Positions 10,646 through 46,405 of a DNA stretch of 64,000 bases are shown here, in pieces. Each line of letters begins with the position of its first letter. Position 1 is the stretch's first letter. Source of the stretch: Hydractinia symbiolongicarpus (Eukaryota > Cnidaria > Hydrozoa > Anthoathecata > Hydractiniidae); the NCBI RefSeq assembly GCF_029227915.1, contig NC_079886.1, positions 16,964,501-17,028,500 of the forward strand. The letters are read 5' to 3'. The notes under the pieces are model-generated. The model ran no database searches, was not told the DNA's origin, and was given only the letters and a program-made list of their open reading frames with translations. Both the position numbers and the translations under genes were made by a program.

Positions 10646-10651
10646 TTTATT
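10646..10651 (-). promoter_or_regulatory. Polyadenylation signal overlapping the stop codon
   Basis: The minus strand reads TGAATAAAG: the last base of the TGA stop is the first A of AATAAA. If used, the 3' UTR would be only a few tens of bases. Confidence 0.55.
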
Positions 10652-11165
10652 CAAAAAAAATAGGGACGATATGTCGTACCTTTTTCAAGATATATTTCTG
10701 GACCGCGTATAATTTGAATTTTTGGCTTTGCTTTCGGACTTCTCTTGGAAGCCATGGTTATGGCAGATAAAGATGGATCAATTGCGTAAGGCATTTCGGT
10801 GGCATAATCTTGCTGTTTTGTGTTATCTTTTGGATCTTCTGAACTAGTTTGATCTTTGGAACACCATCCAACATTAACATAGGCAGATATCTTTAATTTT
10901 TGTAGCGCGGCGTTGCTCAGGTCTTGGTCTTTCGGGAGCTTGAGCAAATACTCGATTCTAGCGTCTTTCATCGGGTTGTCGATAACTTGTTTCGTTACGA
11001 ACTTTGACGGTTTGCTGGACGTGTCAAAAACATTGATAACCATGCAAGAACCATCCGGTATTTGGTCTGGGAATACTTGAGGATAATTAATTCTACCTTC
11101 TATTTGAGCTGGGCGCGAGGAATCCTGTGAAGTGTCACCTGCTGCCCCACTTCCGTTTGGATTAT
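10651..11165 (-). CDS. Array unit 14: terminal domain exon with stop
   Basis: Same domain (ITMASK, private Gln in KIQIIRG), but after YLEKG it does not splice. The frame continues TTYRPYFF and stops with TGA at 10651-10653. Array homology ends exactly where the other copies have their donor. Closing the gene here needs no further exon. Confidence 0.8.
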
Positions 11166-14100
11166 CTGATGATACGAAAAGGAAGGTTATGTTTAAGTTT
11201 TAGAGGTTGAGAGTTGCGGGTGCTATCGGCAAGGATGTTGTTAATAACGTTTTATGAAGGTGCGTTTTATAAAAATAGCACCAAAAATTAAAAAACTTAA
11301 AGGAAAACGTAAAGAGAGGATCGAAACAAATTTATCTGTTTTCAGAGCTTCCCAATATGTGCTACTGAACAGGAGTAATCAAGGCGTTAGATACACAAAA
11401 TATTTCAAATGGGCTTAGGAACTTCTTCCACGGGTAATATTTTGATCGCAAAAATTCTGCTAAAGCGGAATTTTAGTAAAAAAATTTCAAAATAAAATTC
11501 TGCAAAAAAAGAGCTCGCTTTTTCACAAATCAAAACAAAAAATCAAATTTCGATACGTGACAACAAGTTATCTATTTTCAAATCTATCTCATCGTTAACA
11601 GATTTAACGAAGAAGTTTGCAAGACTATAGATACAGTTGTCTATTGTTTACTGTTCTCTATTTTCTTCGACTTGCGTACGAGAAATTAACAAATTGGTAT
11701 TCTATCTTTCCGTTTAAATGAAATAAACAATAAAATTTTGTGACAAAACGGGCAATAAAATGTCGCGATTTATTCTGTTTCTTAACCATTTGTTTATCAG
11801 TCTATTTTCTCGAAGCTATTACACTTTACAAGGTTTCTGCAGGAGACGTGTTGCAGTATAGGGTGGACACCATCGCTTAAGATTTTTTCATACGCTATGG
11901 CTCTATTATCAATTTATGTGGCAATTGATTGGACAGGAACCTGTTCTCTTTTCGATTTCAAAGACAAGTTGAAATATCTCTAATCGGCAGACGATAATAC
12001 ATTTACAAGTTTTAGCTGGGTATAAAAGTATCGTTTTCTTACCTGTCTGCGTTGAAGAAGTTGGAGAAACGCTACCAGAATTAAGATTTGTTGGAGACAA
12101 GGTGGCCTTCATATCTTTTGTAACTATAGTAAAACATAAACGCGTGTTATCTCATGTGCCCTTGGATCGTCTAGTCGCAGAAAGTTAAAAGAAAGGCACA
12201 TTCTTTGGCGGCTTTACCGCTTTTCAGTCGGCTTTTGTTTAGATTGCAAGAGCGTTGAATTGAATTACCTTTTTCAAGATATATTTCTGGACCGCGTATA
12301 ATTCGAATTTTTGGCTTTGCTTTCGGACTTCTCTTGGAAGCCATGGTTATGGCAGATAAAGATGGATCAATTGCGTAAGGCATTTCGGTGGCATAATCTT
12401 GCTGTTTTGTGTTATCTTTTGGATCTTCTGAACTAGTTTGATCTTTGGAACACCATCCAACATTAACATAGGCAGATATCTTTAATTTTTGTAGCGCGGC
12501 GTTGCTCAGGTCTTGGTCTTTCGGGAGCTTGAGCAAATACTCGATTCTAGCGTCTTTCATCGGGTTGTCGATAACTTGTTTCGTTACGAACTTTAACGGT
12601 TTGCTGGACGTGTCAAAAACATTGATAACCATGCAAGAACCATCCGGTATTTGGTCTGGGAATACTTGAGGATAATTAATTCTACCTTCTATTTGAGCTG
12701 GGCGCGAGGAATCCTGTGAAGTGTCACCTGCTGCCCCACTTCCGTTTGGATTATCTGATGATACGAAAAGGAAGGTTATGTTTAAGTTTTAGAGGTTGAG
12801 AGTTGCGGGTGCTATCGGCAAGGATGTTGTTAATAACGTTTTATGAAGGTGCGTTTTATAAAAATAGCACCAAAAATTAAAAAACTTAAAGGAAAACGTA
12901 AAGAGAGGATCGAAACAAATTTATCTGTTTTCAGAGCTTCCCAATATGTGCTACTGAACAGGAGTAATCAAGGCGTTAGATACACAAAATATTTCAAATG
13001 GGCTTAGGAACTTCTTCCACGGGTAATATTTTGATCGCAAAAATTCTGCTAAAGCGGAATTTTAGTAAAAAAATTTCAAAATAAAATTCTGCAAAAAAAG
13101 AGCTCGCTTTTTCACAAATCAAAACAAAAAATCAAATTTCGATACGTGACAACAAGTTATCTATTTTCAAATCTATCTCATCGTTAACAGATTTAACGAA
13201 GAAGTTTGCAAGACTATAGATACAGTTGTCTATTGTTTACTGTTCTCTATTTTCTTCGACTTGCGTACGAGAAATTAACAAATTGGTATTCTATCTTTCC
13301 GTTTAAATGAAATAAACAATAAAATTTTGTGACAAAACGGGCAATAAAATGTCGCGATTTATTCTGTTTCTTAACCATTTGTTTATCAGTCTATTTTCTC
13401 GAAGCTATTACACTTTACAAGGTTTCTGCAGGAGACGTGTTGCAGTATAGGGTGGACACTATCGCTTAAGATTTTTTCATACGCTATGGCTCTATTATCA
13501 ATTTATGTGGCAATTGATTGGACAGGAACCTGTTCTCTTTTCGATTTCAAAGACAAGTTGAAATATCTCTAATCGGCAGACGATAATACATTTACAAGTT
13601 TTAGCTGGGTATAAAAGTATCGTTTTCTTACCTGTCTGCGTTGAAGAAGTTGGAGAAACGCTACCAGAATTAAGATTTGTTGGAGACAAGGTGGCCTTCA
13701 TATCTTTTGTAACTATAGTAAAACATAAACGCGTGTTATCTCATGTGCCCTTGGATCGTCTAGTCGCAGAAAGTTAAAAGAAAGGCACATTCTTTGGCGG
13801 TTTTACCGCTTTTCAGTCGGCTTTTGTTTAGATTGCAAGAGCGTTGAATTGAATTACCTTTTTCAAGATATATTTCTGGACCGCGTATAATTCGAATTTT
13901 TGGCTTTGCTTTCGGACTTCTCTTGGAAGCCATGGTTATGGCAGATAAAGATGGATCAATTGCGTAAGGCATTTCGGTGGCATAATCTTGCTGTTTTGTG
14001 TTATCTTTTGGATCTTCTGAACTAGTTTGATCTTTGGAACACCATCCAACATTAACATAGGCAGATATCTTTAATTTTTGTAGCGCGGCGTTGCTCAGGT

Positions 14101-17100
14101 CTTGGTCTTTCGGGAGCTTGAGCAAATACTCGATTCTAGCGTCTTTCATCGGGTTGTCGATAACTTGTTTCGTTACGAACTTTGACGGTTTGCTGGACGT
14201 GTCAAAAACATTGATAACCATGCAAGAACCATCCGGTATTTGGTCTGGGAATACTTGAGGATAATTAATTCTACCTTCTATTTGAGCTGGGCGCGAGGAA
14301 TCCTGTGAAGTGTCACCTGCTGCCCCACTTCCGTTTGGATTATCTGATGATACGAAAAGGAAGGTTATGTTTTAGTTTTAGAGGTTGAGAGTTGCGGGTG
14401 CTATCGGCAAGGATGTTGTTAATAACGTTTTATGAAGGTGCGTTTTATAAAAATAGCACCAAAAATTAAAAAACTTAAAGGAAAACGTAAAGAGAGGATC
14501 GAAACAAATTTATCTGTTTTCAGAGCTTCCCAATATGTGCTACTGAACAGGAGTAATCAAGGCGTTAGATACACAAAATATTTCAAATGAGCTTAGGAAC
14601 TTCTTCCACGGGTAATATTTTGATCGCAAAAATTCTGCTAAAGCGGAATTTTAGTAAAAAAATTTCAAAATAAAATTCTGCAAAAAAAGAGCTCGCTTTT
14701 TCACAAATCAAAACAAAAAATCAAATTTCGATACGTGACAACAAGTTATCTATTTTCAAATCTATCTCATCGTTAACAGATTTAACGAAGAAGTTTGCAA
14801 GACTATAGATACAGTTGTCTATTGTTTACTGTTCTCTATTTTCTTCGACTTGCGTACGAGAAATTAACAAATTGGTATTCTATCTTTCCGTTTAAATGAA
14901 ATAAACAATAAAATTTTGTGACAAAACGGGCAATAAAATGTCGCGATTTATTCTGTTTCTTAACCATTTGTTTATCAGTCTCTTTTCTCGAAGTTATTAC
15001 GCTTTACAAAGTTCCTGCAGGAGACGTGTTGCAGTATAAGGCGGACACCATCGTTTAAGATTTTTTCATACGCTATGGCTCTATTATCAATTTATGTGGC
15101 AATTGATTGGACAGGAACCTGTTCTCTTTTCGATTTCAAAGACCAGTTGAAATATCTCTAATCGGCAGACGATAATTCATTTACAAGTTTTAGCTGGGTA
15201 TAAAAGTATCGTTTTCTTACCTGTCTGCGTTGAAGAAGTTGGAGAAACGCTACCAGAATTAAGATTTGTTGGAGACAAGGTGGCCTTCATATCTTTTGTA
15301 ACTATAGTAAAACATAAATGCGTGTTATCTCATGTGCCCTTGGATCGTTTAGTCGCAGAAAGTTAAAAGAAAGGCACATTCTTTGGCGGTTTTACCGCTT
15401 TTCAGTCGGCTTTGGTTTAGATTGCAAGAGCGTTGAATTGAATTACCTTTTTCAAGATATATTTCTGGACCGCGTATAATTCGAATTTTTGGCTTTGCTT
15501 TCGGACTTCTCTTGGAAGTCATGGTTATGGCAGATAAAGATGGATCAATTGCGTAAGGCATTTCGGTGGCATAATCTTGCTGTTTTGTGTTATCTTTTGG
15601 ATCTTCTGAACTAGTTTGATCTTTGGAACACCATCCAACATTAACATAGGCAGATATCTTTAATTTTTGTAGCGCGGCGTTGCTCAGGTCTTGGTCTTTC
15701 GGGAGCTTGAGCAAATACTCGATTCTAGCGTCTTTCATCGGGTTGTCGATAACTTGTTTCGTTACGTACTTTGACGGTTTGCTGGACGTGTCAAAAACAT
15801 TGATAACCATGCAAGAACCATCCGGTATTTGGTCTGGGAATACTTGAGGATAATTAATTCTACCTTCTATTTGAGCTGGGCGCGAGGAATCCTGTGAAGT
15901 GTCACCTGCTGCCCCACTTCCGTTTGGATTATCTGATGATACGAAAAGGAAGGTTATGTTTTAGTTTTAGAGGTTGAGAGTTGCGGGTGCTATCGGCAAG
16001 GATGTTGTTAATAACGTTTTATGAAGGTGCGTTTTATAAAAATAGCACCAAAAATTAAAAAACTTAAAGGAAAACGTAAAGAGAGGATCGAAACAAATTT
16101 ATCTGTTTTCAGAGCTTCCCAATATGTGCTACTGAACAGGAGTAATCAAGGCGTTAGATACACAAAATATTTCAAATGAGCTTAGGAACTTCTTCCACGG
16201 GTAATATTTTGATCGCAAAAATTCTGCTAAAGCGGAATTTTAGTAAAAAAATTTCAAAATAAAATTCTGCAAAAAAAGAGCTCGCTTTTTCACAAATCAA
16301 AACAAAAAATCAAATTTCGATACGTGACAACAAGTTATCTATTTTCAAATCTATCTCATCGTTAACAGATTTAACGAAGAAGTTTGCAAGACTATAGATA
16401 CAGTTGTCTATTGTTTACTGTTCTCTATTTTCTTCGACTTGCGTACGAGAAATTAACAAATTGGTATTCTATCTTTCCGTTTAAATGAAATAAACAATAA
16501 AATTTTGTGACAAAACGGGCAATAAAATGTCGCGATTTATTCTGTTTCTTAACCATTTGTTTATCAGTCTCTTTTCTCGAAGTTATTACGCTTTACAAAG
16601 TTCCTGCAGGAGACGTGTTGCAGTATAAGGCGGACACCATCGTTTAAGATTTTTTCATACGCTATGGCTCTATTATCAATTTATGTGGCAATTGATTGGA
16701 CAGGAACCTGTTCTCTTTTCGATTTCAAAGACCAGTTGAAATATCTCTAATCGGCAGACGATAATTCATTTACAAGTTTTAGCTGGGTATAAAAGTATCG
16801 TTTTCTTACCTGTCTGCGTTGAAGAAGTTGGAGAAACGCTACCAGAATTAAGATTTGTTGGAGACAAGGTGGCCTTCATATCTTTTGTAACTATAGTAAA
16901 ACATAAACGCGTGTTATCTCATGTGCCCTTGGATCGTTTAGTCGCAGAAAGTTAAAAGAAAGGCACATTCTTTGGCGGTTTTACCGCTTTTCAGTCGGCT
17001 TTGGTTTAGATTGCAAGAGCGTTGAATTGAATTACCTTTTTCAAGATATATTTCTGGACCGCGTATAATTCGAATTTTTGGCTTTGCTTTCGGACTTCTC

Positions 17101-20100
17101 TTGGAAGTCATGGTTATGGCAGATAAAGATGGATCAATTGCGTAAGGCATTTCGGTGGCATAATCTTGCTGTTTTGTGTTATCTTTTGGATCTTCTGAAC
17201 TAGTTTGATCTTTGGAACACCATCCAACATTAACATAGGCAGATATCTTTAATTTTTGTAGCGCGGCGTTGCTCAGGTCTTGGTCTTTCGGGAGCTTGAG
17301 CAAATACTCGATTCTAGCGTCTTTCATCGGGTTGTCGATAACTTGTTTCGTTACGAACTTTGACGGTTTGCTGGACGTGTCAAAAACATTGATAACCATG
17401 CAAGAACCATCCGGTATTTGGTCTGGGAATACTTGAGGATAATTAATTCTACCTTCTATTTGAGCTGGGCGCGAGGAATCCTGTGAAGTGTCACCTGCTG
17501 CCCCACTTCCGTTTGGATTATCTGATGATACGAAAAGGAAGGTTATGTTATAGTTTTAGAGGTTGAGAGTTGCGGGTGCTATCGGCAAGGATGTTGTTAA
17601 TAACGTTTTATGAAGGTGCGTTTTATAAAAATAGCACCAAAAATTAAAAAACTTAAAGGAAAACGTAAAGAGAGGATCGAAACAAATTTATCTGTTTTCA
17701 GAGCTTCCCAATATGTGCTACTGAACAGGAGTAATCAAGGCGTTAGATACACAAAATATTTCAAATGAGCTTAGGAACTTCTTCCACGGGTAATATTTTG
17801 ATCGCAAAAATTCTGCTAAAGCGGAATTTTAGTAAAAAAATTTCAAAATAAAATTCTGCAAAAAAAGAGCTCGCTTTTTCACAAATCAAAACAAAAAATC
17901 AAATTTCGATACGTGACAACAAGTTATCTATTTTCAAATCTATCTCATCGTTAACAGATTTAACGAAGAAGTTTGCAAGACTATAGATACAGTTGTCTAT
18001 TGTTTACTGTTCTCTATTTTCTTCGACTTGCGTACGAGAAATTAACAAATTGGTATTCTATCTTTCCGTTTAAATGAAATAAACAATAAAATTTTGTGAC
18101 AAAACGGGCAATAAAATGTCGCGATTTATTCTGTTTCTTAACCATTTGTTTATCAGTCTCTTTTCTCGAAGTTATTACGCTTTACAAAGTTCCTGCAGGA
18201 GACGTGTTGCAGTATAAGGCGGACACCATCGTTTAAGATTTTTTCATACGCTATGGCTCTATTATCAATTTATGTGGCAATTGATTGGACAGGAACCTGT
18301 TCTCTTTTCGATTTCAAAGACCAGTTGAAATATCTCTAATCGGCAGACGATAATTCATTTACAAGTTTTAGCTGGGTATAAAAGTATCGTTTTCTTACCT
18401 GTCTGCGTTGAAGAAGTTGGAGAAACGCTACCAGAATTAAGATTTGTTGGAGACAAGGTGGCCTTCATATCTTTTGTAACTATAGTAAAACATAAACGCG
18501 TGTTATCTCATGTGCCCTTGGATCGTTTAGTCGCAGAAAGTTAAAAGAAAGGCACATTCTTTGGCGGTTTTACCGCTTTTCAGTCGGCTTTGGTTTAGAT
18601 TGCAAGAGCGTTGAATTGAATTACCTTTTTCAAGATATATTTCTGGACCGCGTATAATTCGAATTTTTGGCTTTGCTTTCGGACTTCTCTTGGAAGTCAT
18701 GGTTATGGCAGATAAAGATGGATCAATTGCGTAAGGCATTTCGGTGGCATAATCTTGCTGTTTTGTGTTATCTTTTGGATCTTCTGAACTAGTTTGATCT
18801 TTGGAACACCATCCAACATTAACATAGGCAGATATCTTTAATTTTTGTAGCGCGGCGTTGCTCAGGTCTTGGTCTTTCGGGAGCTTGAGCAAATACTCGA
18901 TTCTAGCGTCTTTCATCGGGTTGTCGATAACTTGTTTCGTTACGAACTTTGACGGTTTGCTGGACGTGTCAAAAACATTGATAACCATGCAAGAACCATC
19001 CGGTATTTGGTCTGGGAATACTTGAGGATAATTAATTCTACCTTCTATTTGAGCTGGGCGCGAGGAATCCTGTGAAGTGTCACCTGCTGCCCCACTTCCG
19101 TTTGGATTATCTGATGATACGAAAAGGAAGGTTATGTTTTAGTTTTAGAGGTTGAGAGTTGCGGGTGCTATCGGCAAGGATGTTGTTAATAACGTTTTAT
19201 GAAGGTGCGTTTTATAAAAATAGCACCAAAAATTAAAAAACTTAAAGGAAAACGTAAAGAGAGGATCGAAACAAATTTATCTGTTTTCAGAGCTTCCCAA
19301 TATGTGCTACTGAACAGGAGTAATCAAGGCGTTAGATACACAAAATATTTCAAATGAGCTTAGGAACTTCTTCCACGGGTAATATTTTGATCGCAAAAAT
19401 TCTGCTAAAGCGGAATTTTAGTAAAAAAATTTCAAAATAAAATTCTGCAAAAAAAGAGCTCGCTTTTTCACAAATCAAAACAAAAAATCAAATTTCGATA
19501 CGTGACAACAAGTTATCTATTTTCAAATCTATCTCATCGTTAACAGATTTAACGAAGAAGTTTGCAAGACTATAGATACAGTTGTCTATTGTTTACTGTT
19601 CTCTATTTTCTTCGACTTGCGTACGAGAAATTAACAAATTGGTATTCTATCTTTCCGTTTAAATGAAATAAACAATAAAATTTTGTGACAAAACGGGCAA
19701 TAAAATGTCGCGATTTATTCTGTTTCTTAACCATTTGTTTATCAGTCTCTTTTCTCGAAGTTATTACGCTTTACAAAGTTCCTGCAGGAGACGTGTTGCA
19801 GTATAAGGCGGACACCATCGTTTAAGATTTTTTCATACGCTATGGCTCTATTATCAATTTATGTGGCAATTGATTGGACAGGAACCTGTTCTCTTTTCGA
19901 TTTCAAAGACCAGTTGAAATATCTCTAATCGGCAGACGATAATTCATTTACAAGTTTTAGCTGGGTATAAAAGTATCGTTTTCTTACCTGTCTGCGTTGA
20001 AGAAGTTGGAGAAACGCTACCAGAATTAAGATTTGTTGGAGACAAGGTGGCCTTCATATCTTTTGTAACTATAGTAAAACATAAACGCGTGTTATCTCAT

Positions 20101-23100
20101 GTGCCCTTGGATCGTTTAGTCGCAGAAAGTTAAAAGAAAGGCACATTCTTTGGCGGTTTTACCGCTTTTCAGTCGGCTTTGGTTTAGATTGCAAGAGCGT
20201 TGAATTGAATTACCTTTTTCAAGATATATTTCTGGACCGCGTATAATTCGAATTTTTGGCTTTGCTTTCGGACTTCTCTTGGAAGTCATGGTTATGGCAG
20301 ATAAAGATGGATCAATTGCGTAAGGCATTTCGGTGGCATAATCTTGCTGTTTTGTGTTATCTTTTGGATCTTCTGAACTAGTTTGATCTTTGGAACACCA
20401 TCCAACATTAACATAGGCAGATATCTTTAATTTTTGTAGCGCGGCGTTGCTCAGGTCTTGGTCTTTCGGGAGCTTGAGCAAATACTCGATTCTAGCGTCT
20501 TTCATCGGGTTGTCGATAACTTGTTTCGTTACGAACTTTGACGGTTTGCTGGACGTGTCAAAAACATTGATAACCATGCAAGAACCATCCGGTATTTGGT
20601 CTGGGAATACTTGAGGATAATTAATTCTACCTTCTATTTGAGCTGGGCGCGAGGAATCCTTTGAAGTGTCACCTGCTGCCCCACTTCCGTTTGGATTATC
20701 TGATGATACGAAAAGGAAGGTTATGTTTTAGTTTTAGAGGTTGAGAGTTGCGGGTGCTATCGGCAAGGATGTTGTTAATAACGTTTTATGAAGGTGCGTT
20801 TTATAAAAATAGCACCAAAAATTAAAAAACTTAAAGGAAAACGTAAAGAGAGGATCGAAACAAATTTATCTGTTTTCAGAGCTTCCCAATATGTGCTACT
20901 GAACAGGAGTAATCAAGGCGTTAGATACACAAAATATTTCAAATGAGCTTAGGAACTTCTTCCACGGGTAATATTTTGATCGCAAAAATTCTGCTAAAGC
21001 GGAATTTTAGTAAAAAAATTTCAAAATAAAATTCTGCAAAAAAAGAGCTCGCTTTTTCACAAATCAAAACAAAAAATCAAATTTCGATACGTGACAACAA
21101 GTTATCTATTTTCAAATCTATCTCATCGTTAACAGATTTAACGAAGAAGTTTGCAAGACTATAGATACAGTTGTCTATTGTTTACTGTTCTCTATTTTCT
21201 TCGACTTGCGTACGAGAAATTAACAAATTGGTATTCTATCTTTCCGTTTAAATGAAATAAACAATAAAATTTTGTGACAAAACGGGCAATAAAATGTCGC
21301 GATTTATTCTGTTTCTTAACCATTTGTTTATCAGTCTCTTTTCTCGAAGTTATTACGCTTTACAAAGTTCCTGCAGGAGACGTGTTGCAGTATAAGGCGG
21401 ACACCATCGTTTAAGATTTTTTCATACGCTATGGCTCTATTATCAATTTATGTGGCAATTGATTGGACAGGAACCTGTTCTCTTTTCGATTTCAAAGACC
21501 AGTTGAAATATCTCTAATCGGCAGACGATAATTCATTTACAAGTTTTAGCTGGGTATAAAAGTATCGTTTTCTTACCTGTCTGCGTTGAAGAAGTTGGAG
21601 AAACGCTACCAGAATTAAGATTTGTTGGAGACAAGGTGGCCTTCATATCTTTTGTAACTATAGTAAAACATAAACGCGTGTTATCTCATGTGCCCTTGGA
21701 TCGTTTAGTCGCAGAAAGTTAAAAGAAAGGCACATTCTTTGGCGGTTTTACCGCTTTTCAGTCGGCTTTGGTTTAGATTGCAAGAGCGTTGAATTGAATT
21801 ACCTTTTTCAAGATATATTTCTGGACCGCGTATAATTCGAATTTTTGGCTTTGCTTTCGGACTTCTCTTGGAAGTCATGGTTATGGCAGATAAAGATGGA
21901 TCAATTGCGTAAGGCATTTCGGTGGCATAATCTTGCTGTTTTGTGTTATCTTTTGGATCTTCTGAACTAGTTTGATCTTTGGAACACCATCCAACATTAA
22001 CATAGGCAGATATCTTTAATTTTTGTAGCGCGGCGTTGCTCAGGTCTTGGTCTTTCGGGAGCTTGAGCAAATACTCGATTCTAGCGTCTTTCATCGGGTT
22101 GTCGATAACTTGTTTCGTTACGAACTTTGACGGTTTGCTGGACGTGTCAAAAACATTGATAACCATGCAAGAACCATCCGGTATTTGGTCTGGGAATACT
22201 TGAGGATAATTAATTCTACCTTCTATTTGAGCTGGGCGCGAGGAATCCTGTGAAGTGTCACCTGCTGCCCCACTTCCGTTTGGATTATCTGATGATACGA
22301 AAAGGAAGGTTATGTTTTAGTTTTAGAGGTTGAGAGTTGCGGGTGCTATCGGCAAGGATGTTGTTAATAACGTTTTATGAAGGTGCGTTTTATAAAAATA
22401 GCACCAAAAATTAAAAAACTTAAAGGAAAACGTAAAGAGAGGATCGAAACAAATTTATCTGTTTTCAGAGCTTCCCAATATGTGCTACTGAACAGGAGTA
22501 ATCAAGGCGTTAGATACACAAAATATTTCAAATGAGCTTAGGAACTTCTTCCACGGGTAATATTTTGATCGCAAAAATTCTGCTAAAGCGGAATTTTAGT
22601 AAAAAAATTTCAAAATAAAATTCTGCAAAAAAAGAGCTCGCTTTTTCACAAATCAAAACAAAAAATCAAATTTCGATACGTGACAACAAGTTATCTATTT
22701 TCAAATCTATCTCATCGTTAACAGATTTAACGAAGAAGTTTGCAAGACTATAGATACAGTTGTCTATTGTTTACTGTTCTCTATTTTCTTCGACTTGCGT
22801 ACGAGAAATTAACAAATTGGTATTCTATCTTTCCGTTTAAATGAAATAAACAATAAAATTTTGTGACAAAACGGGCAATAAAATGTCGCGATTTATTCTG
22901 TTTCTTAACCATTTGTTTATCAGTCTCTTTTCTCGAAGTTATTACGCTTTACAAAGTTCCTGCAGGAGACGTGTTGCAGTATAAGGCGGACACCATCGTT
23001 TAAGATTTTTTCATACGCTATGGCTCTATTATCAATTTATGTGGCAATTGATTGGACAGGAACCTGTTCTCTTTTCGATTTCAAAGACCAGTTGAAATAT

Positions 23101-26100
23101 CTCTAATCGGCAGACGATAATTCATTTACAAGTTTTAGCTGGGTATAAAAGTATCGTTTTCTTACCTGTCTGCGTTGAAGAAGTTGGAGAAACGCTACCA
23201 GAATTAAGATTTGTTGGAGACAAGGTGGCCTTCATATCTTTTGTAACTATAGTAAAACATAAACGCGTGTTATCTCATGTGCCCTTGGATCGTTTAGTCG
23301 CAGAAAGTTAAAAGAAAGGCACATTCTTTGGCGGTTTTACCGCTTTTCAGTCGGCTTTGGTTTAGATTGCAAGAGCGTTGAATTGAATTACCTTTTTCAA
23401 GATATATTTCTGGACCGCGTATAATTCGAATTTTTGGCTTTGCTTTCGGACTTCTCTTGGAAGTCATGGTTATGGCAGATAAAGATGGATCAATTGCGTA
23501 AGGCATTTCGGTGGCATAATCTTGCTGTTTTGTGTTATCTTTTGGATCTTCTGAACTAGTTTGATCTTTGGAACACCATCCAACATTAACATAGGCAGAT
23601 ATCTTTAATTTTTGTAGCGCGGCGTTGCTCAGGTCTTGGTCTTTCGGGAGCTTGAGCAAATACTCGATTCTAGCGTCTTTCATCGGGTTGTCGATAACTT
23701 GTTTCGTTACGAACTTTGACGGTTTGCTGGACGTGTCAAAAACATTGATAACCATGCAAGAACCATCCGGTATTTGGTCTGGGAATACTTGAGGATAATT
23801 AATTCTACCTTCTATTTGAGCTGGGCGCGAGGAATCCTTTGAAGTGTCACCTGCTGCCCCACTTCCGTTTGGATTATCTGATGATACGAAAAGGAAGGTT
23901 ATGTTTTAGTTTTAGAGGTTGAGAGTTGCGGGTGCTATCGGCAAGGATGTTGTTAATAACGTTTTATGAAGGTGCGTTTTATAAAAATAGCACCAAAAAT
24001 TAAAAAACTTAAAGGAAAACGTAAAGAGAGGATCGAAACAAATTTATCTGTTTTCAGAGCTTCCCAATATGTGCTACTGAACAGGAGTAATCAAGGCGTT
24101 AGATACACAAAATATTTCAAATGAGCTTAGGAACTTCTTCCACGGGTAATATTTTGATCGCAAAAATTCTGCTAAAGCGGAATTTTAGTAAAAAAATTTC
24201 AAAATAAAATTCTGCAAAAAAAGAGCTCGCTTTTTCACAAATCAAAACAAAAAATCAAATTTCGATACGTGACAACAAGTTATCTATTTTCAAATCTATC
24301 TCATCGTTAACAGATTTAACGAAGAAGTTTGCAAGACTATAGATACAGTTGTCTATTGTTTACTGTTCTCTATTTTCTTCGACTTGCGTACGAGAAATTA
24401 ACAAATTGGTATTCTATCTTTCCGTTTAAATGAAATAAACAATAAAATTTTGTGACAAAACGGGCAATAAAATGTCGCGATTTATTCTGTTTCTTAACCA
24501 TTTGTTTATCAGTCTCTTTTCTCGAAGTTATTACGCTTTACAAAGTTCCTGCAGGAGACGTGTTGCAGTATAAGGCGGACACCATCGTTTAAGATTTTTT
24601 CATACGCTATGGCTCTATTATCAATTTATGTGGCAATTGATTGGACAGGAACCTGTTCTCTTTTCGATTTCAAAGACCAGTTGAAATATCTCTAATCGGC
24701 AGACGATAATTCATTTACAAGTTTTAGCTGGGTATAAAAGTATCGTTTTCTTACCTGTCTGCGTTGAAGAAGTTGGAGAAACGCTACCAGAATTAAGATT
24801 TGTTGGAGACAAGGTGGCCTTCATATCTTTTGTAACTATAGTAAAACATAAACGCGTGTTATCTCATGTGCCCTTGGATCGTTTAGTCGCAGAAAGTTAA
24901 AAGAAAGGCACATTCTTTGGCGGTTTTACCGCTTTTCAGTCGGCTTTGGTTTAGATTGCAAGAGCGTTGAATTGAATTACCTTTTTCAAGATATATTTCT
25001 GGACCGCGTATAATTCGAATTTTTGGCTTTGCTTTCGGACTTCTCTTGGAAGTCATGGTTATGGCAGATAAAGATGGATCAATTGCGTAAGGCATTTCGG
25101 TGGCATAATCTTGCTGTTTTGTGTTATCTTTTGGATCTTCTGAACTAGTTTGATCTTTGGAACACCATCCAACATTAACATAGGCAGATATCTTTAATTT
25201 TTGTAGCGCGGCGTTGCTCAGGTCTTGGTCTTTCGGGAGCTTGAGCAAATACTCGATTCTAGCGTCTTTCATCGGGTTGTCGATAACTTGTTTCGTTACG
25301 AACTTTGACGGTTTGCTGGACGTGTCAAAAACATTGATAACCATGCAAGAACCATCCGGTATTTGGTCTGGGAATACTTGAGGATAATTAATTCTACCTT
25401 CTATTTGAGCTGGGCGCGAGGAATCCTGTGAAGTGTCACCTGCTGCCCCACTTCCGTTTGGATTATCTGATGATACGAAAAGGAAGGTTATGTTTTAGTT
25501 TTAGAGGTTGAGAGTTGCGGGTGCTATCGGCAAGGATGTTGTTAATAACGTTTTATGAAGGTGCGTTTTATAAAAATAGCACCAAAAATTAAAAAACTTA
25601 AAGGAAAACGTAAAGAGAGGATCGAAACAAATTTATCTGTTTTCAGAGCTTCCCAATATGTGCTACTGAACAGGAGTAATCAAGGCGTTAGATACACAAA
25701 ATATTTCAAATGGGCTTAGGAACTTCTTCCACGGGTAATATTTTGATCGCAAAAATTCTGCTAAAGCGGAATTTTAGTAAAAAAATTTTAAAATAAAATT
25801 CTGCAAAAAAAGAGCTCGCTTTTTCACAAATCAAAACAAAAAATCAAATTTCGATACGTGACAACAAGTTATCTATTTTCAAATCTATCTCATCGTTAAC
25901 AGATTTAACGAAGAAGTTTGCAAGACTATAGATACAGTTGTCTATTGTTTACTGTTCTCTATTTTCTTCGACTTGCGTACGAGAAATTAACAAATTGGTA
26001 TTCTATCTTTCCGTTTAAATGAAATAAACAATAAAATTTTGTGACAAAACGGGCAATAAAATGTCGCGATTTATTCTGTTTCTTAACCATTTGTTTATCA

Positions 26101-29100
26101 GTCTCTTTTCTCGAAGTTATTACGCTTTACAAAGTTCCTGCAGGAGACGTGTTGCAGTATAAGGCGGACACCATCGTTTAAGATTTTTTCATACGCTATG
26201 GCTCTATTATCAATTTATGTGGCAATTGATTGGACAGGAACCTGTTCTCTTTTCGATTTCAAAGACCAGTTGAAATATCTCTAATCGGCAGACGATAATT
26301 CATTTACAAGTTTTAGCTGGGTATAAAAGTATCGTTTTCTTACCTGTCTGCGTTGAAGAAGTTGGAGAAACGCTACCAGAATTAAGATTTGTTGGAGACA
26401 AGGTGGCCTTCATATCTTTTGTAACTATAGTAAAACATAAACGCGTGTTATCTCATGTGCCCTTGGATCGTTTAGTCGCAGAAAGTTAAAAGAAAGGCAC
26501 ATTCTTTGGCGGTTTTACCGCTTTTCAGTCGGCTTTGGTTTAGATTGCAAGAGCGTTGAATTGAATTACCTTTTTCAAGATATATTTCTGGACCGCGTAT
26601 AATTCGAATTTTTGGCTTTGCTTTCGGACTTCTCTTGGAAGTCATGGTTATGGCAGATAAAGATGGATCAATTGCGTAAGGCATTTCGGTGGCATAATCT
26701 TGCTGTTTTGTGTTATCTTTTGGATCTTCTGAACTAGTTTGATCTTTGGAACACCATCCAACATTAACATAGGCAGATATCTTTAATTTTTGTAGCGCGG
26801 CGTTGCTCAGGTCTTGGTCTTTCGGGAGCTTGAGCAAATACTCGATTCTAGCGTCTTTCATCGGGTTGTCGATAACTTGTTTCGTTACGAACTTTGACGG
26901 TTTGCTGGACGTGTCAAAAACATTGATAACCATGCAAGAACCATCCGGTATTTGGTCTGGGAATACTTGAGGATAATTAATTCTACCTTCTATTTGAGCT
27001 GGGCGCGAGGAATCCTGTGAAGTGTCACCTGCTGCCCCACTTCCGTTTGGATTATCTGATGATACGAAAAGGAAGGTTATGTTTTAGTTTTAGAGGTTGA
27101 GAGTTGCGGGTGCTATCGGCAAGGATGTTGTTAATAACGTTTTATGAAGGTGCGTTTTATAAAAATAGCACCAAAAATTAAAAAACTTAAAGGAAAACGT
27201 AAAGAGAGGATCGAAACAAATTTATCTGTTTTCAGAGCTTCCCAATATGTGCTACTGAACAGGAGTAATCAAGGCGTTAGATACACAAAATATTTCAAAT
27301 GAGCTTAGGAACTTCTTCCACGGGTAATATTTTGATCGCAAAAATTCTGCTAAAGCGGAATTTTAGTAAAAAAATTTCAAAATAAAATTCTGCAAAAAAA
27401 GAGCTCGCTTTTTCACAAATCAAAACAAAAAATCAAATTTCGATACGTGACAACAAGTTATCTATTTTCAAATCTATCTCATCGTTAACAGATTTAACGA
27501 AGAAGTTTGCAAGACTATAGATACAGTTGTCTATTGTTTACTGTTCTCTATTTTCTTCGACTTGCGTACGAGAAATTAACAAATTGGTATTCTATCTTTC
27601 CGTTTAAATGAAATAAACAATAAAATTTTGTGACAAAACGGGCAATAAAATGTCGCGATTTATTCTGTTTCTTAACCATTTGTTTATCAGTCTCTTTTCT
27701 CGAAGTTATTACGCTTTACAAAGTTCCTGCAGGAGACGTGTTGCAGTATAAGGCGGACACCATCGTTTAAGATTTTTTCATACGCTATGGCTCTATTATC
27801 AATTTATGTGGCAATTGATTGGACAGGAACCTGTTCTCTTTTCGATTTCAAAGACCAGTTGAAATATCTCTAATCGGCAGACGATAATTCATTTACAAGT
27901 TTTAGCTGGGTATAAAAGTATCGTTTTCTTACCTGTCTGCGTTGAAGAAGTTGGAGAAACGCTACCAGAATTAAGATTTGTTGGAGACAAGGTGGCCTTC
28001 ATATCTTTTGTAACTATAGTAAAACATAAACGCGTGTTATCTCATGTGCCCTTGGATCGTTTAGTCGCAGAAAGTTAAAAGAAAGGCACATTCTTTGGCG
28101 GTTTTACCGCTTTTCAGTCGGCTTTGGTTTAGATTGCAAGAGCGTTGAATTGAATTACCTTTTTCAAGATATATTTCTGGACCGCGTATAATTCGAATTT
28201 TTGGCTTTGCTTTCGGACTTCTCTTGGAAGTCATGGTTATGGCAGATAAAGATGGATCAATTGCGTAAGGCATTTCGGTGGCATAATCTTGCTGTTTTGT
28301 GTTATCTTTTGGATCTTCTGAACTAGTTTGATCTTTGGAACACCATCCAACATTAACATAGGCAGATATCTTTAATTTTTGTAGCGCGGCGTTGCTCAGG
28401 TCTTGGTCTTTCGGGAGCTTGAGCAAATACTCGATTCTAGCGTCTTTCATCGGGTTGTCGATAACTTGTTTCGTTACGAACTTTGACGGTTTGCTGGACG
28501 TGTCAAAAACATTGATAACCATGCAAGAACCATCCGGTATTTGGTCTGGGAATACTTGAGGATAATTAATTCTACCTTCTATTTGAGCTGGGCGCGAGGA
28601 ATCCTGTGAAGTGTCACCTGCTGCCCCACTTCCGTTTGGATTATCTGATGATACGAAAAGGAAGGTTATGTTTTAGTTTTAGAGGTTGAGAGTTGCGGGT
28701 GCTATCGGCAAGGATGTTGTTAATAACGTTTTATGAAGGTGCGTTTTATAAAAATAGCACCAAAAATTAAAAAACTTAAAGGAAAACGTAAAGAGAGGAT
28801 CGAAACAAATTTATCTGTTTTCAGAGCTTCCCAATATGTGCTACTGAACAGGAGTAATCAAGGCGTTAGATACACAAAATATTTCAAATGGGCTTAGGAA
28901 CTTCTTCCACGGGTAATATTTTGATCGCAAAAATTCTGCTAAAGCGGAATTTTAGTAAAAAAATTTCAAAATAAAATTCTGCAAAAAAAGAGCTCGCTTT
29001 TTCACAAATCAAAACAAAAAATCAAATTTCGATACGTGACAACAAGTTATCTATTTTCAAATCTATCTCATCGTTAACAGATTTAACGAAGAAGTTTGCA

Positions 29101-32100
29101 AGACTATAGATACAGTTGTCTATTGTTTACTGTTCTCTATTTTCTTCGACTTGCGTACGAGAAATTAACAAATTGGTATTCTATCTTTCCGTTTAAATGA
29201 AATAAACAATAAAATTTTGTGACAAAACGGGCAATAAAATGTCGCGATTTATTCTGTTTCTTAACCATTTGTTTATCAGTCTCTTTTCTCGAAGTTATTA
29301 CGCTTTACAAAGTTCCTGCAGGAGACGTGTTGCAGTATAAGGCGGACACCATCGTTTAAGATTTTTTCATACGCTATGGCTCTATTATTAATTTATGTCG
29401 CAATTGATTGGACAGGAACCTGTTCTCTTTTCGATTTCAAAGACCAGTTGAAATATCTCTAATCGGCAGACGATAATTCATTTACAAGTTTTAGCTGGGT
29501 ATAAAAGTATCGTTTTCTTACCTGTCTGCGTTGAAGAAGTTGGAGAAACGCTACCAGAATTAAGATTTGTTGGAGACAAGGTGGCCTTCATATCTTTTGT
29601 AACTATAGTAAAACATAAACGCGTGTTATCTCATGTGCCCTTGGATCGTTTAGTCGCAGAAAGTTAAAAGAAAGGCACATTCTTTGGCGGTTTTACCGCT
29701 TTTCTGTCGGCTTTGGTTTAGATTGCAAGAGCGTTGAATTGAATTACCTTTTTCAAGATATATTTCTGGACCGCGTATAATTCGAATTTTTGGCTTTGCT
29801 TTCGGACTTCTCTTGGAAGTCATGGTTATGGCAGATAAAGATGGATCAATTGCGTAAGGCATTTCGGTGGCATAATCTTGCTGTTTTGTGTTATCTTTTG
29901 GATCTTCTGAACTAGTTTGATCTTTGGAACACCATCCAACATTAACATAGGCAGATATCTTTAATTTTTGTAGCGCGGCGTTGCTCAGGTCTTGGTCTTT
30001 CGGGAGCTTGAGCAAATACTCGATTCTAGCGTCTTTCATCGGGTTGTCGATAACTTGTTTCGTTACGAACTTTGACGGTTTGCTGGACGTGTCAAAAACA
30101 TTGATAACCATGCAAGAACCATCCGGTATTTGGTCTGGGAATACTTGAGGATAATTAATTCTACCTTCTATTTGAGCTGGGCGCGAGGAATCCTGTGAAG
30201 TGTCACCTGCTGCCCCACTTCCGTTTGGATTATCTGATGATACGAAAAGGAAGGTTATGTTTTAGTTTTAGAGGTTGAGAGTTGCGGGTGCTATCGGCAA
30301 GGATGTTGTTAATAACGTTTTATGAAGGTGCGTTTTATAAAAATAGCACCAAAAATTAAAAAACTTAAAGGAAAACGTAAAGAGAGGATCGAAACAAATT
30401 TATCTGTTTTCAGAGCTGCCCAATATGTGCTACTGAACAGGAGTAATCAAGGCGTTAGATACACAAAATATTTCAAATGGGCTTAGGAACTTCTTCCACG
30501 GGTAATATTTTGATCGCAAAAATTCTGCTAAAGCGGAATTTTAGTAAAAAAATTTCAAAATAAAATTCTGCAAAAAAAGAGCTCGCTTTTTCACAAATCA
30601 AAACAAAAAATCAAATTTCGATACGTGACAACAAGTTATCTATTTTCAAATCTATCTCATCGTTAACAGATTTAACGAAGAAGTTTGCAAGACTATAGAT
30701 ACAGTTGTCTATTGTTTACTGTTCTCTATTTTCTTCGACTTGCTTACGAGAAATTAACAAATTGGTATTCTATCTTTCCGTTTAAATGAAATAAACAATA
30801 AAATTTTGTGACAAAACGGGCAATAAATTGTCGCGATTTATTCTGTTTCTTAACCATTTGTTTATCAGTCTATTTTCTCGAAGTTATTACAATTTACAAG
30901 GTTTCTGCAGGAGACGTGTTGCAGTATGGGGCGGACACCATCGTTTAAGATTTTTTCATACGCTATGGCTCTATTATCAATTGATGTGGCAATTGATTGG
31001 ACAGGAACCTGTTCTCTTTTCGATTTCAAAGGCAAGTTGAAATATCTCTAATCGACAGATGGTAATTTATTTACAAGTTTTAGCTGGGTATAAAAATATC
31101 GTTTTCTTACCTGTCTGCGTTGAAGAAGTTGGAGAAACGCTACCAGAATTAAGATTTGTTGGAGACAAGGTGGCCTTCATATCTTTTGTAACTATAGTAA
31201 AACATAAACGCGTGTTATCTCATGTGCCCTTGGATCGTTTAGTCGCAGAAAGTTAAAAGAAAGGCACATTCTTTGGCGGTTTTACCGCCTTTCAGTCGGC
31301 CTTTGTTTAGATTGCAAGAGTGTTGAATTGAATTACCTTTTTCAAGATATATTTCTGGACCGCGTATAATTCGAATTTTTGGCTTTGCTTTCGGACTTCT
31401 CTTGGAAGCCATGGTTATGGCAGATAAAGATGGATCAATTGCGTAAGGCATTTCGGTGGCATAATCTTGCTGTTTTGTGTTATCTTTTGGATCTTCTGAA
31501 CTAGTTTGATCTTTGGAACACCATCCAACATTAACATAGGCAGATATCTTTAATTTTTGTAGCGCGGCGTTGCTCAGGTCTTGGTCTTTCGGGAGCTTGA
31601 GCAAATACTCGATTCTAGCGTCTTTCATCGGGTTGTCGATAACTTGTTTCGTTACGAACTTTGACGGTTTGCTGGACGTGTCAAAAACATTGATAACCAT
31701 GCAAGAACCATCCGGTATTTGGTCTGGGAATACTTGAGGATAATTAATTCTACCTTCTACTTGAGCTGGGCGCGAGGAATCCTGTAAAGTGTCACCTGCT
31801 GCCCCACTTCCGTTTGGATTATCTGATGATACGAAAAGGAAGGTTATGTTTTAGTTTTAGAGGTTAAGAGTTGCGGGAGCTATCGGCAAGGATTTTGTTA
31901 ATAACATTTTATGAAGGTGCATTATATAAAAATAGCACCAAAAATTAAAAACTTAAAGGAAAACGTAAAGAGAGGATCGAAACTAATCTATCTGTTTTCA
32001 GAACTGCACAATATGTGCTACTGAACAGGAGTAATCAAGGCGTTTGATACACAAAATATTTGAAACGGGCTTAGGAACTTCTTCCACGAGTAATATTTTG

Positions 32101-35100
32101 ATCGCAAAAATTATGCTAAAGCGGATTTTTAGTAAAAAAATTTCAAATTTTATATCCTATATAATTGAAATATTTCTACTCAATTTCAAACCGGTAAAAG
32201 GTTTAGAGAAATACTAAAAGTTAACAATGCGCATGGTGAGAGCGCTTTTTCAGTGAAATTTTTTGATCATAACGTTTGGTGAAGTTAACCCTTAACATTC
32301 GCTTTTTCTGTGTGTATTTATCACTAGCATTTGGAATCTCTATCCCGTTTCGTAAGGTTGGTAATGTGATTTTGTTCGGCCCAGTGGTTTGTCCGCGTTT
32401 GCTGTTAACATGCTTTGGAAATATTGCTTCTGGCTGAAGGCACGTAATTGCGAAAAACGAGACAGTAATTCATGAACAAGTTTCGCTGTGTATAAAAAGT
32501 ATTGTTTTATTACCTGTTTGTGTTGAAGAACTCGGAGAGACGATACCACTATTATGATTTGTTTGAGACAGCGTGGATACAATTTCTTTTGTCACTATGG
32601 CAAATACAGATGGGCGGGCATTAAACTAAGAGAATGTGCGACCTGCCGTTGAACGCCCAGTGGCACACATTCAAGGTATGCGGTGTGTCGTAAATCGAGT
32701 AAAGCACACACAACGTCATAGTGTTTCAGGTGTAACATATTTTTCAAAATATAACTTCACTGTAAGTTTAGATGAAATAAAAACACTGTTTACATATCGT
32801 TATTACCTACAAAAACAATCAGTCAATATTATTTTAATTTGCGAATACGTTCCCGTGAAAGTTTAAAAATTAATCGTGACACCAGCTGAGCACATGTGTA
32901 TAGGCGTAATACCCTTTTTAAAAAAACATTATCACAACTTCAGTTTAAATAATAACACAGGAAACAGGCTATCGTTAACACCAGGCCGAGCGCTTAGTAC
33001 AGGTAAACCGTGTTGCACATGAATATAGGCGTAATAACATTTTCCAAAAAAACTTTCTCGCAACTTCGGTTTAAAAAAAATGCAGGAAACAGCCTGTCGT
33101 TAACCTATCCATTCAAAAACAACTTTATTTTGCGGAGTAAGGTCTCGTAACAGCAATAAAAGGTGTAGCTACCTAACTTTATTTAGCATAAGAATTATTA
33201 AGGATTTTGTTATAGCAAAGCTGCATTTAGCTACTTTCACTTTTTAGTCAGCTGGCAAGAGCTGACTACATAGCCACAATCTCAAGTACAAATAAATGAC
33301 AATATATCAAACTTAATAAAAAAATTCAAAAAAATAGAAATAAATAAGGCTAGCTATATCTAGAGCTAGCTAGATTAAGAAACAGGATGCTGCCTGGAAA
33401 TCTACGTTTGTAGCCAAAATCTAAAAATTAGTTTGTTTAAGATGTATACATGGCTAGAAAACGTGATGATATATTTATTTTAACATTTTAAAAAAAACAA
33501 AAAACCAATAATCCTATAGATACAAAGTATTTAAAAGAGAAAAAGATCTAAAAGAGACGTACAAACCCAAAGTGATCAATTCCAAACCAAAATGGCCTCC
33601 ATAAGTGTAGCCCAAACGTAGCATGATTCCTCCGTCGGCATGCTGAGGCCACAAAGAGCTTGGATTGGTTACAAAGTCATTAAAAAACAGGGTCTAGCGG
33701 GGTCCAAAATAAAGCTGCAGGGCAGCTGGCATTTTCCGTGAGCCTCGCTACTTGCGATACCATTTTGCATGACAGACGTATGCGTATATTATAATAGACT
33801 AGTCGTTGCCCGTGGAAAAATCCACGGGTTCGCCCGTCCTTTATATTTACCCGTCGCAACAAAGTGGATAAAAGTATATCGCATTTGATATTCGTGTTTC
33901 CGTAACATCATTTTCTAACTCAGCGGGGGGTCCGCGCAGAGACAGACAGACGGAATACGGCTATTATAATAGAGATACATAAATATTTGAAACAAAGTTT
34001 ATATCATTTTCTCACAAATTAAAGAAGTAAAATCAATCTTGAAAATTCTGGAAATTCCGCAATAAAAATCCTATTGTGTAAAATTGATAATTTGAATAAT
34101 AAAGCTTAAGTGGGCCATGTGGGTTTAACATTTCCCTTGAATGCTTAGGTATTAGGTGTTTGAAACTGGCTTTTGCGAGTCAGTGGTTTTTGCGAGTCAG
34201 TGGTCTTAAAACAGCCACCATCAGGTGGCTGTTTTAAAACCACTGACTCGCCAACCTTAATTTTGATAACTTTCTTTCCGCAAGCAATTTGTTTCTTTAA
34301 AATAATCTTATCTTTTTTTGCACAGCTATTGGCGAACAAAATCAGAATAAGTTCAATTGTTACAGCCATAAAAGCGTCATTTAGTTGCTCAGCAATCCTT
34401 AACAGCGCGGTACTTTTTGCCGACTGATTTCCAGATCAAAAATTCATTCTAGAAACTTATTTTTCTTTCAAGAAAACAACAACAAAAGGACAATGAAAAC
34501 TATATATAAATCAGTCAATTTATTCTTTTTCTTTCATTTTAGCATATTCTATATGTGAAAGTGACTAGATTATTTGCCGACTTCAACTTTTTGTAAACCT
34601 TTTCTACCGATAAAGTATAGCGTTGTAGCTTTAGAAACCAAATATTGTCATCTTATTTGGTTCTTTTAGGTCATCTCTCACGAGAAAACTTATGTTGTGT
34701 TATGATTCTGCACATAAGAGTCTGCAAAACTATGCACTTTCTTAATTGTGAGATTATCTTAGTGAGGTATTTCAGGTAGAAATGGGTTAAAGCCATTCTA
34801 TATTATTTCTTTACATCAAGTTAATCAAGGAAAGGGGCGAAGATTTACGGCACTAACTATGTGAACTAAGCACCAACCTCCCTAATCAGTGCGTAACTAC
34901 CTAATCATAACTAAAACATTCAATCGAGTTTCAAAAATTATTATGAGTGTAAAAAGTTATGGCGAGATTGATTTTATCAACAAGAACGTTTAGGTAATTG
35001 ATCAGGATAGCCCGGAGGGTAATTTATTTTGCCATAAATTTTATTTACTTGTTTTGGCGAGCTTACTTGAGAAGAATCCGCTGAGTTCATATTTTGTTTG

Positions 35101-38100
35101 GCTTCTTCGCTTTTCATGTTATTTTCTGCTTGAAGATTGTTTGTTGACGTAACTACAAAATTTCAAAGTATTAATAACAAGTGAGAAAGTAATATGTTGA
35201 TAAGACCGAATCATCAGATCTTTTAAAGAGCTTTTGATTCACCTAAACTTGATCTCTTTTAACGTTGTAGGTTTGAGATACTGTTCCTTAAAGTAGTAGT
35301 AAATTTTTCCAAGTTTTAGAAGCGTAAAAATAAATTATTACGATCCGGAAAGAATGCTACCTATGCACCGTATTGATTTTATTTTATTTCATTTATTTAA
35401 CGTTGTATACTTACCATGGCTACAAAGGGTCATGTTTAAAACACTGTTATTTCATTTCTACTGACAAAAAAATTGACTCTAAATAAAGTTAAAAGATAGA
35501 AGAAAAAAGAATGCAATTAAACAAAAGATACTGGTATGTACATGCCATTTTTATTGAGTTGATAAAACCATAATAGTTATTTACCAAAATGGCGTTATTT
35601 TCCACTTTTTGTAAAAATTTCATGAATAAGCTATTGAAATTGTTTCGCGCCTTTTTTTCAGCTGGTACTGGATTTTTGTAGATTTGCACAAAACCGCGGT
35701 AATACTTAACGTTTTATTTAAGCAGAATCTATTTCCTCTGTTAAACCTATGAACAGTTTATTACCGGAGTTTATTCTCGTGTTTTTAGGTAAAAATATAA
35801 GTAACTGTATTCTTTAAGGCATACCTTGTTTTAATTGGATATCTGGTCCACGGAAATCTTGTTCGACATTTTGGCTTGTTCCAAGCTCAACTGGAATTGA
35901 GAAATAGTCTTGTGGTTTAGCCGTTTTGGAAGGATCTTCTGAGATAGCTTGTTTTTCTGCACACCAACCGAGAGTGACAAGAGCGGAAAGTTTAAATAAT
36001 TTCAAGTTTGTTATATCTTCTGTCATGGGTAGATTTAGTTTGTATTCAGTGTTTACTGTTGGTACTGGTTCTTTTATCAGTTCTTGAGTGATCATTCTAG
36101 CTGGTTTTACATTTGTATCGAAAAGATTCACAACTAAACAAGATCCTGTTGGCAGCAATTCAGGAAAAACTTTAGGATATGTTATTCTACCAAATATTTG
36201 ATTTTTTTGTTCAGTCGTTTTTTTGTTCGCATTTTGAGCAACATGTATGGATGAGTTATCAGATGCCGCTTGTCCTTCTTCAGTAGTTCGAATTCCAGTT
36301 TTCGACTGATCTGTTTTCGTAAGAAGAAAAAATAATGTACAATGTAAAAGAACATTCTCATAGAACAGCTAATTCTTTACTTTTTGACGATAAATTCTGA
36401 TAAGAAGTGGACAAATTTCGTGACATAGTACGAACATTTTATCGGCGAACAGTACTAACCTTTCAAAATGCTAAATTGCTGCTTTTGTCACTCCCCGACA
36501 TACTTTTTTGATAAGATAAGAATCAAAGATAAGGACACTTACTTGAAATAATTGTTAAAAATAATAATTCTTTAATCAAAATTGTTAAATATAACAAACA
36601 GTTAAATAAATAAGGAAAAAGGCAAATATTCAATACAAAGCAATGTATAACATGTTTTCAAAATATAAACAATTACTTAGACAACACGTTTTTCTTAAAG
36701 AACCTACAACCCTGAAAATAATATTTGTGGAAAAAGCCGGTTTTTGGCCATTTCTCGAGATGACCAAACAGAATCACTTGGTCAGTACTCTGCGCTGGTA
36801 GGCTGCAACATTTTACTTTGGTAGAGATGTAGGCCAAGTAAACATCTTCGAAAAATGCGTTAGCTGCACTTTGAAAATGCTTGCATTTTAGAACAATGCG
36901 CTATACGACCCGGAAGATCCAAAAACCCGGGAAATAGCACATGTTGGCTTTGGCCTTGATCCGAATTCCGCTTGTGAACACTGATAATTGAACTTTTACA
37001 AATTCAGGATGCGTGTGACTTACAAAGAAACGGCTTTCTCAATTGCTTGTGGTCACGAGCTTTAAAATTCCGCCCTCGTTTTCATTAATTTGCGATTAAG
37101 TTTACGCTTGTGAATTTTATGTGGTATAAAATATGCCTGCAATTAAATGTTCCCAAAGGTTTTAATTTAAAAAACATCAAACTTTGCTCAGCTTAATTCA
37201 CAATCTTCGCCAACATTAATATTTACCAGAGAAATTCCACCGCTTAAAAAGAATGGCAAACAAGGGAGGACATAACCAACGAATCGGGATAATAGTAACA
37301 ATAATGAACCTCACTTTTATTTGATTCTTCAACTTCATCCTTCTGTGAAACTAAAAAATAGCAAGGCATGAACTTTACAATTTTTTCATACTTATTCTAC
37401 TCAACTGCTATTTTTAAAGTCTTTTTTTATTTACCTCTTTTTATGAATATATCAGGCCCCTTAAATATTCCTTTCGATCCTCCTGTAAAGTCAACAGAAC
37501 CAAGAGTATAAAAGCCGGGCGTTGAATAATCAGTTTTCTTTACCACCCCGTCTTGATTTGTTGTGTTTTCCGAACACCAGCCAACATTAAGCAAGGCAGA
37601 GATCTTGAACTCGCGAAACCTATCCAAGGATATCTCAACATCTTGGGCGATTTTTAGAGAGTATACAATGTTGGTAGTTTTCAAAGGATCGTATATAATT
37701 TCTTTTGATACCCAATTTCTTTTGTCGTCGCTTTCAAATAGCCTTATAACCATGCATGACTCTTTTGGTAGTCCATCTGGTATTTCTTGTGCATACCATA
37801 TGTTTCCTTCTATATATCTCAAGTCGTTTGTTGACATATTCGTGCCTAATGTTGCAGGTTCCGCTACTATAAGATTGTAAGCAAAAGTAAACTTAAATAC
37901 AATGTATTTCAGTCCATATTGCCAAGAATCGGAAAATGGTCAAAATTTAATCTGCTTAGAGGAAGTAACTAATACTACGGACACGTTTCAATCTGGCAAG
38001 ATGTAGTTTATGATCTATTGTTTAACACTTTTAACTTTTTTGTGGTTTTGTCAGGAAGGTCGAAAATATTTCGGATCTATAAGAAGAGTGGATAAAATCT

Positions 38101-45880: not shown

Positions 45881-46405
45881 TTTTGATGTCACCCTGGTAC
45901 CTAAGATGAATATTCTTCTAACAACGAAAATCACCATCAATTAAAAGAACACAGATTTGTTAATCCTTATAATATTGGAAAACTGTAAACAATGGATATA
46001 TATCTGGTATAATCCACAAAGTTGTGTTTCATAAGAGGAACTAAGAAGGTGAAAAAAATCAATCAAAATAACTTGTATTTTGATGTCACCCTGGTACCTA
46101 TGATGAATATTCAAGTAAATAACACAGAAGATTTGTTCTGAATCCTTATAATATTGGAAAACTGTAAACAATAGATATATATCTGGTATAATCCACAAAG
46201 TTGTGTTTCATAAGAGGAACTAAGAAGGTGAAAAAAATCAATCAAAATAACTTGTATTTTGATGTCACCCTGGTACCTATGATGAATATTCAAGTAAATA
46301 ACACAGAAGATTTGTTCTGAATCCTTATAATATTGGAAAACTGTAAACAATGGATATATATCTGGTATAATCCACAAAGTTGGTGAAAAAAATCAATCAA
46401 AATAA
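45881..46405. repeat. 179-bp tandem repeat, about 2.7 copies
   Basis: TTTTGATGTCACCCTGGTAC starts copies at 45881, 46078 and 46257. The first interval is 197 bp, the second 179 bp. Lies within the nested hAT-like element. Non-coding. Confidence 0.85.

Follow-up and report, generated by a model that had tools for sequence, protein, structure and literature searches.

The DNA analysed here, called the window below, is a 64,000-nucleotide stretch of the genome of the hydrozoan Hydractinia symbiolongicarpus (assembly GCF_029227915.1, contig NC_079886.1, positions 16,964,501 to 17,028,500; coordinates below count from its first letter). On its minus strand lies a candidate gene in which an exon pair, one exon for a predicted folded domain and one for a linker, is repeated in tandem with a period of 1589 bp, and whose last exon encodes minicollagen cysteine-rich domains (MCRDs). 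The parts of this gene and of the array inside it are as follows.

41056..41173, minus strand: exon 1, 118 nt, with the start codon and a signal-like hydrophobic N-terminus, ending in phase 1
38646..38711, minus strand: exon 2, 66 nt, phase 1
37435..37866, minus strand: domain exon D1, diverged, 31-35% alike to D2 and the array units
35825..36310, minus strand: domain exon D2, about 40-43% alike to the array units
34980..35153, minus strand: remnant of a truncated domain, interrupted by an in-frame stop, intronic and excluded from the model
32514..32594, minus strand: linker exon L0, 70% alike to the array linkers
10680..32146, minus strand: tandem array of the domain and linker exons given in the next two lines, step 1589
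31822-31337 (first) to 11165-10680 (last), minus strand: array domain exons, 14 of 486 nt each
31191-31111 (first) to 12123-12043 (last), minus strand: array linker exons, 13 of 81 nt each
8749..8787, minus strand: short exon, 39 nt, by eye like the first half of a linker
6475..8543, minus strand: last exon, 2,069 nt and 689 residues, with Thr/Ser-rich 34-residue repeats, then a Cys-rich C-terminus and the stop
7858..8508, minus strand: tandem repeat of 102 bp (34 residues) in 6.4 copies with 78% matches, mucin-like and Thr/Ser-rich
7516..7572, minus strand: MCRD 1, variant CX3CX3CX4CX3CC
6643..6696, minus strand: MCRD 2, exact CX3CX3CX3CX3CC
6505..6558, minus strand: MCRD 3, exact CX3CX3CX3CX3CC

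The array dominates the repeat structure of the window: lag 1589 is the top lag, with 18,562 recurrences of 20-mers, and the runner-up is lag 210. Domain exons start at 31822, 30233 and onward to 11165, and all 13 intervals equal 1589 bp, which confirms the exact 14-copy amplification that a first, sequence-only reading of this DNA had reported. That reading had also described two symmetric phase-1 exons (486 and 81 nt) per unit, and all 27 array exons do have AG/GT borders and phase 1; their lengths are divisible by three, so that, as it had argued, the frame is preserved at any number of units. The splice junctions it proposed, 31337 to 31191 and 31111 to 30233, match the exon borders of our model, a comparison of sequence with sequence. 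Its span of 10651..32146 stands at one end only: the homologous block has its 5′ edge near 32146, and 10651 is the stop that follows if translation of the last domain exon continues past its splice donor (open frame 10654-11199), not the end of the gene.

The units are very alike. Pairwise, units 2-11 differ at 0-7 bases per 1589, and units 12 and 13 lie 14-20 bases away from these and 5 from each other; the first copy is more diverged and has a one-base shift inside its leading intron. The linker protein sequence is identical in 13 of 13 copies, and seven residues vary overall among the 14 domains. Variable sites are rarer in the array exons (7/567) than in two compared introns (32/698; Fisher p 0.0005), and with unit 1 left out and all introns included the counts are 5/567 exon sites against 23/1022 intron sites (p 0.048). 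These differences suggest, short of proof, that the array exons are under constraint; the exon changes themselves are protein-altering in seven of seven cases, where 76% would be expected (P 0.14).

Joined to the exons on either side, the array falls within a minus-strand model running from 41173 to 6475, with 34 exons, 3,715 residues and its sole stop at the end. The model was built from sequence alone; every intron in it is GT-AG and phase 1, and the flanking exons on both sides are in the array's phase. Sixteen domains had been predicted in one gene, and D1, D2 and the 14 array copies make up that number, while the predicted length of about 3,033 residues gives way to 3,715 once the last array donor is used and the 3′ exons join. 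Third codon positions are the most divergent among D1, D2 and an array unit (0.62-0.71 against 0.33-0.49 elsewhere), a pattern as in coding sequence. In a hydrophobicity scan, as distinct from a dedicated signal-peptide predictor, the eight top-scoring 15-mers of the entire model all fall within residues 1-22; this signal-like N-terminus favors the earlier proposal that the protein is secreted, and secretion itself is presumed. A 98% identical relative of D2 (P0001) runs into flanking intron sequence. The features of the model support one gene that spans the array and its flanking exons, which would be read as a single transcript.

The public annotation suggests something different, namely that every unit is a short gene in its own right. 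NCBI's LOC130621316 is a model of 240 residues. Two of its exons derive from introns, a domain exon and a linker complete it, and its stop falls in the intron that follows. Its pieces recur exactly in the array, with 10 matches for the first, 13 for the second and 12 for the linker plus read-through; the domain is matched in 7 of 14 copies. The annotated protein thus starts and ends in introns of our model, a point that weighs against a single gene; it appears that either the annotation splits the gene or the 34-exon model is wrong. Nevertheless, we consider separate genes unlikely. No unit has an MCRD or mucin tail of its own, the open frames around the 14 domain exons contain no Met before the domain, and the stop of LOC130621316 requires reading into an intron, whereas the array borders are in phase 1 and match the exons on either side. 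The first NCBI exon, moreover, sits on a variable stretch in which 6 of 42 bases differ from unit to unit (offsets 1205-1246), and automatic models may well break in arrays of this kind. The locus name was absent from the open-access papers searched.

The last exon gives an indication of what the protein might do. CX3CX3CX3CX3CC is the published pattern of the minicollagen cysteine-rich domain (PMC4863159), the module through which proteins of the nematocyst capsule are crosslinked (PMC4863159, PMC6910907); disulfides formed through such modules join minicollagens, Cnidoin and CPP-1 in the capsule (PMC4321713, PMC6910907). The exact pattern appeared in none of 100 base shuffles of the window, and five control loci, 49,505 bases in total, contained no instance of a looser form; a loose form did have one opposite-strand match, inside a Cys-rich neighboring gene. 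The C-terminal MCRDs therefore make a role in the stinging capsule likely, a point that the sequence-only reading did not raise. Minicollagens carry a central Gly-X-Y stretch of 12-16 triplets (PMC4863159), and since the model protein contains no Gly-X-Y runs of four or more, the array gene is not a minicollagen. Other searches with this exon returned little: no Pfam family, no match among 1549 candidates in a protein database search, and in the genome only itself and one weak match on contig C15 (E 0.02). The MCRD stretch, compared by sequence with the PDB, gave two matches, both of them weak (E 0.62 and 1.8).

Two structure models, together with a profile match to AspS, assign the array domain an AspS/ExsB-type fold; as predicted, then, the repeated domain resembles the bacterial YscW/pilotin fold. 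The window's own domains match no Pfam family, YscW (PF09619) included, and a PDB search with a five-row domain profile found no match. Related Hydractinia domains reach the Pfam YscW cut-off in 5 of the 12 scanned (5/10 in one batch, 0/2 in another); our alignment of relatives (A3) has 17 members, 5 of which lie outside that scan. Bacterial relatives of the domain were sought among the genome contigs, where none of 34 pattern matches was confirmed. A genome search with D2 gave 38 places at E ≤ 1, 35 of them on C12, the window's contig; 29 matches have E ≤ 0.001, and the 13 of these outside the window are all on C12. An MCRD-like motif occurs on the domain's strand at 7 of the 10 out-of-window loci fetched, a set that includes two overlapping pairs; the loci without one are L023, L027 (contig C3) and L028 (contig C9). 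Domain and MCRD are thus a recurrent pairing, and the array gene seems to be an extreme case within the family. The open-access papers searched yielded no report linking YscW with cnidarians: three mention both YscW and Cnidaria and are, by title, on sea-anemone heat stress and zooplankton, and of the 996 papers matched by a broader search the 5 listed do not include YscW. In the cell atlas paper no passage on minicollagen or the array locus was found.

At L027 (4036-6138), three relatives of the domain stand in a row, two of them at or above the Pfam YscW cut-off, and L028 (5261-5560) has a further relative; neither locus has a recognised MCRD. At a guess, these relatives could represent an older form of the family.

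Elsewhere on the same contig, C12:21478500-21547900 (L019, L029-L033, L026) holds near-identical tandem genes in which a domain exon leads to an MCRD. A single giant gene in which MCRD exons alternate with domain exons is another reading of C12:21.48-21.54 Mb, but whole genes in tandem are likelier because three copies have a Met and a hydrophobic stretch before the domain and an in-frame stop after the MCRD. Each gene reads as a start, a YscW-like domain, a number of modules composed of an acidic part and an F5/8C-like part, and an MCRD, with an LDLa stretch in one gene; the F5/8C-like part scores 27.6 bits, below the Pfam cut-off of 28.2. Four whole genes, with domain exons 98.8-100% alike, have 2, 2, 4 and 1 of these modules; left out of the count are a fifth gene that runs off the fetched edge and a gene with a diverged domain (one copy, beside 99 unfetched bases). 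The period in the four-copy gene is 2858 bp, and the spacing between the two module parts is wider in the one-copy gene than elsewhere. As modelled, these genes show that internal coding modules are gained or lost in the YscW-like and MCRD family between paralogs, as distinct from individuals. The length variability that had been claimed for the array gene is supported only by analogy with them.

The remaining features of the window lie upstream of the array gene.

53016..55680, minus strand: neighboring gene, six-exon, 370-residue model, hydrophobic start (by eye), rich in Met, Pro, Gln and Cys
42795-44203, minus strand: two open frames, 288 and 195 residues long, which look like a pogo/Tigger-type transposase
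45962-46382: 179-bp tandem repeat, 2.4 copies, 99% matches

Of the four MCRDs in the neighboring gene, two are exact and two variant. Its Cys-rich part is preceded by one basic and one acidic stretch, and its general make-up is similar to that of Cnidoin and CPP-1. The C-termini of the two genes align, and in shuffles with the cysteines held fixed the score was reached in 0/1000 for modules 2-3 and 4/1000 for module 1.

MCRDs may also be used outside the nematocyst, and the array gene could then encode a secreted repeat protein of another kind, for a cuticle, an adhesive or mucus. The mucin-like repeats and the sheer size would suit an extracellular coat, and the nematocyst location is itself deduced; still, the exact minicollagen pattern, the adjoining MCRD gene and the recurring association of the paralogs with MCRDs make this improbable.

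We put at roughly 0.7 the probability that a single H. symbiolongicarpus gene occupies the locus, that it encodes a giant structural protein which is secreted, belongs to the nematocyst and is crosslinked through its MCRDs, and that its exon pair has been brought to 14 copies by unequal exchange. In such a protein the signal-like start would direct secretion, 16 beta-rich domains of YscW/pilotin fold spaced by Ser/Thr-rich linkers would be followed by the mucin-like stretch, and the C-terminal MCRDs would anchor the chain by disulfides in the capsule or tubule wall. Unequal exchange between units would both amplify the domain-linker pair and homogenise the copies, and the phase-1 introns would keep it from disturbing the frame. 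The number of domains might set the protein's reach or stiffness.

Copy number here means the count in one assembly. The published Hydractinia chromosome assembly used HiFi reads with an N50 of 13.2 kb (PMC10411563); presuming that the window derives from it, the array is resolvable in principle, because its longest exact internal repeat, 4,984 bp, is shorter than that N50. Least probable of the alternatives is accordingly an assembly artefact, with fewer or more units in the animal: the 21.5-kb array does exceed the read N50 and contains identical units (4, 7 and 9; also 6 and 8), but 13-kb reads, if HiFi reads indeed underlie the window, would carry the differences that order the units, and units 1, 2, 12 and 13 are distinct.

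We also entertain, as a tentative speculation, that a bacterial-type YscW/pilotin fold was recruited to hydrozoan capsules and paired with MCRDs in a clustered family, and that the number of 189-residue units is a heritable length setting, differing by individual or by nematocyst type. The pressure inside nematocyst capsules is about 150 bar, and discharge is a matter of nanoseconds (PMC4321713). A countable, frame-safe ladder of domains, which could grow or shrink one block at a time and leave the protein intact, would if real allow a question to be asked in a laboratory model, namely whether protein length tunes capsule mechanics. The YscW-like family would join a bacterial-type fold to an animal-specific organelle, and the array would be another well-resolved case, beside human LPA, of the expansion and homogenisation of a coding array.

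The sequence-only reading held that such an array has no described counterpart; human LPA kringle IV-2 is one. Its unit comprises two exons, and there too a coding unit of kilobase scale is repeated head to tail within a single gene whose product is secreted. The domain is unrelated, and the LPA units, of about 5.5 kb and highly variable in number (PMC12123407), are larger than the 1.6-kb unit of the array gene, which is known from one assembly. AspS/ExsB pilotins (Pfam YscW, PF09619) have the predicted fold in common with the repeated domain; they are bacterial lipoproteins that escort secretins, whereas the array domain belongs to a predicted secreted animal protein, and no such role is implied for it. 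The other domains of minicollagens and of NOWA differ from those of the array protein; the CX3CX3CX3CX3CC modules are shared (PMC4863159). Closest in plan are the Hydra wall proteins Cnidoin and CPP-1, which likewise combine a non-collagen center with MCRDs for disulfide crosslinking, yet these are proteins of about 26-42 kDa with silk-like or polyproline centers and cysteine-rich domains at both ends (PMC4321713, PMC6910907), whereas the array protein would have about 3,700 residues and 16 predicted folded domains, with MCRDs seen only C-terminally. The domain pairing of the array gene is apparently undescribed. Intragenic coding arrays and MCRD-crosslinked capsule proteins are both known; within the literature searched, their meeting on a ladder of YscW-type domains seems to be new.
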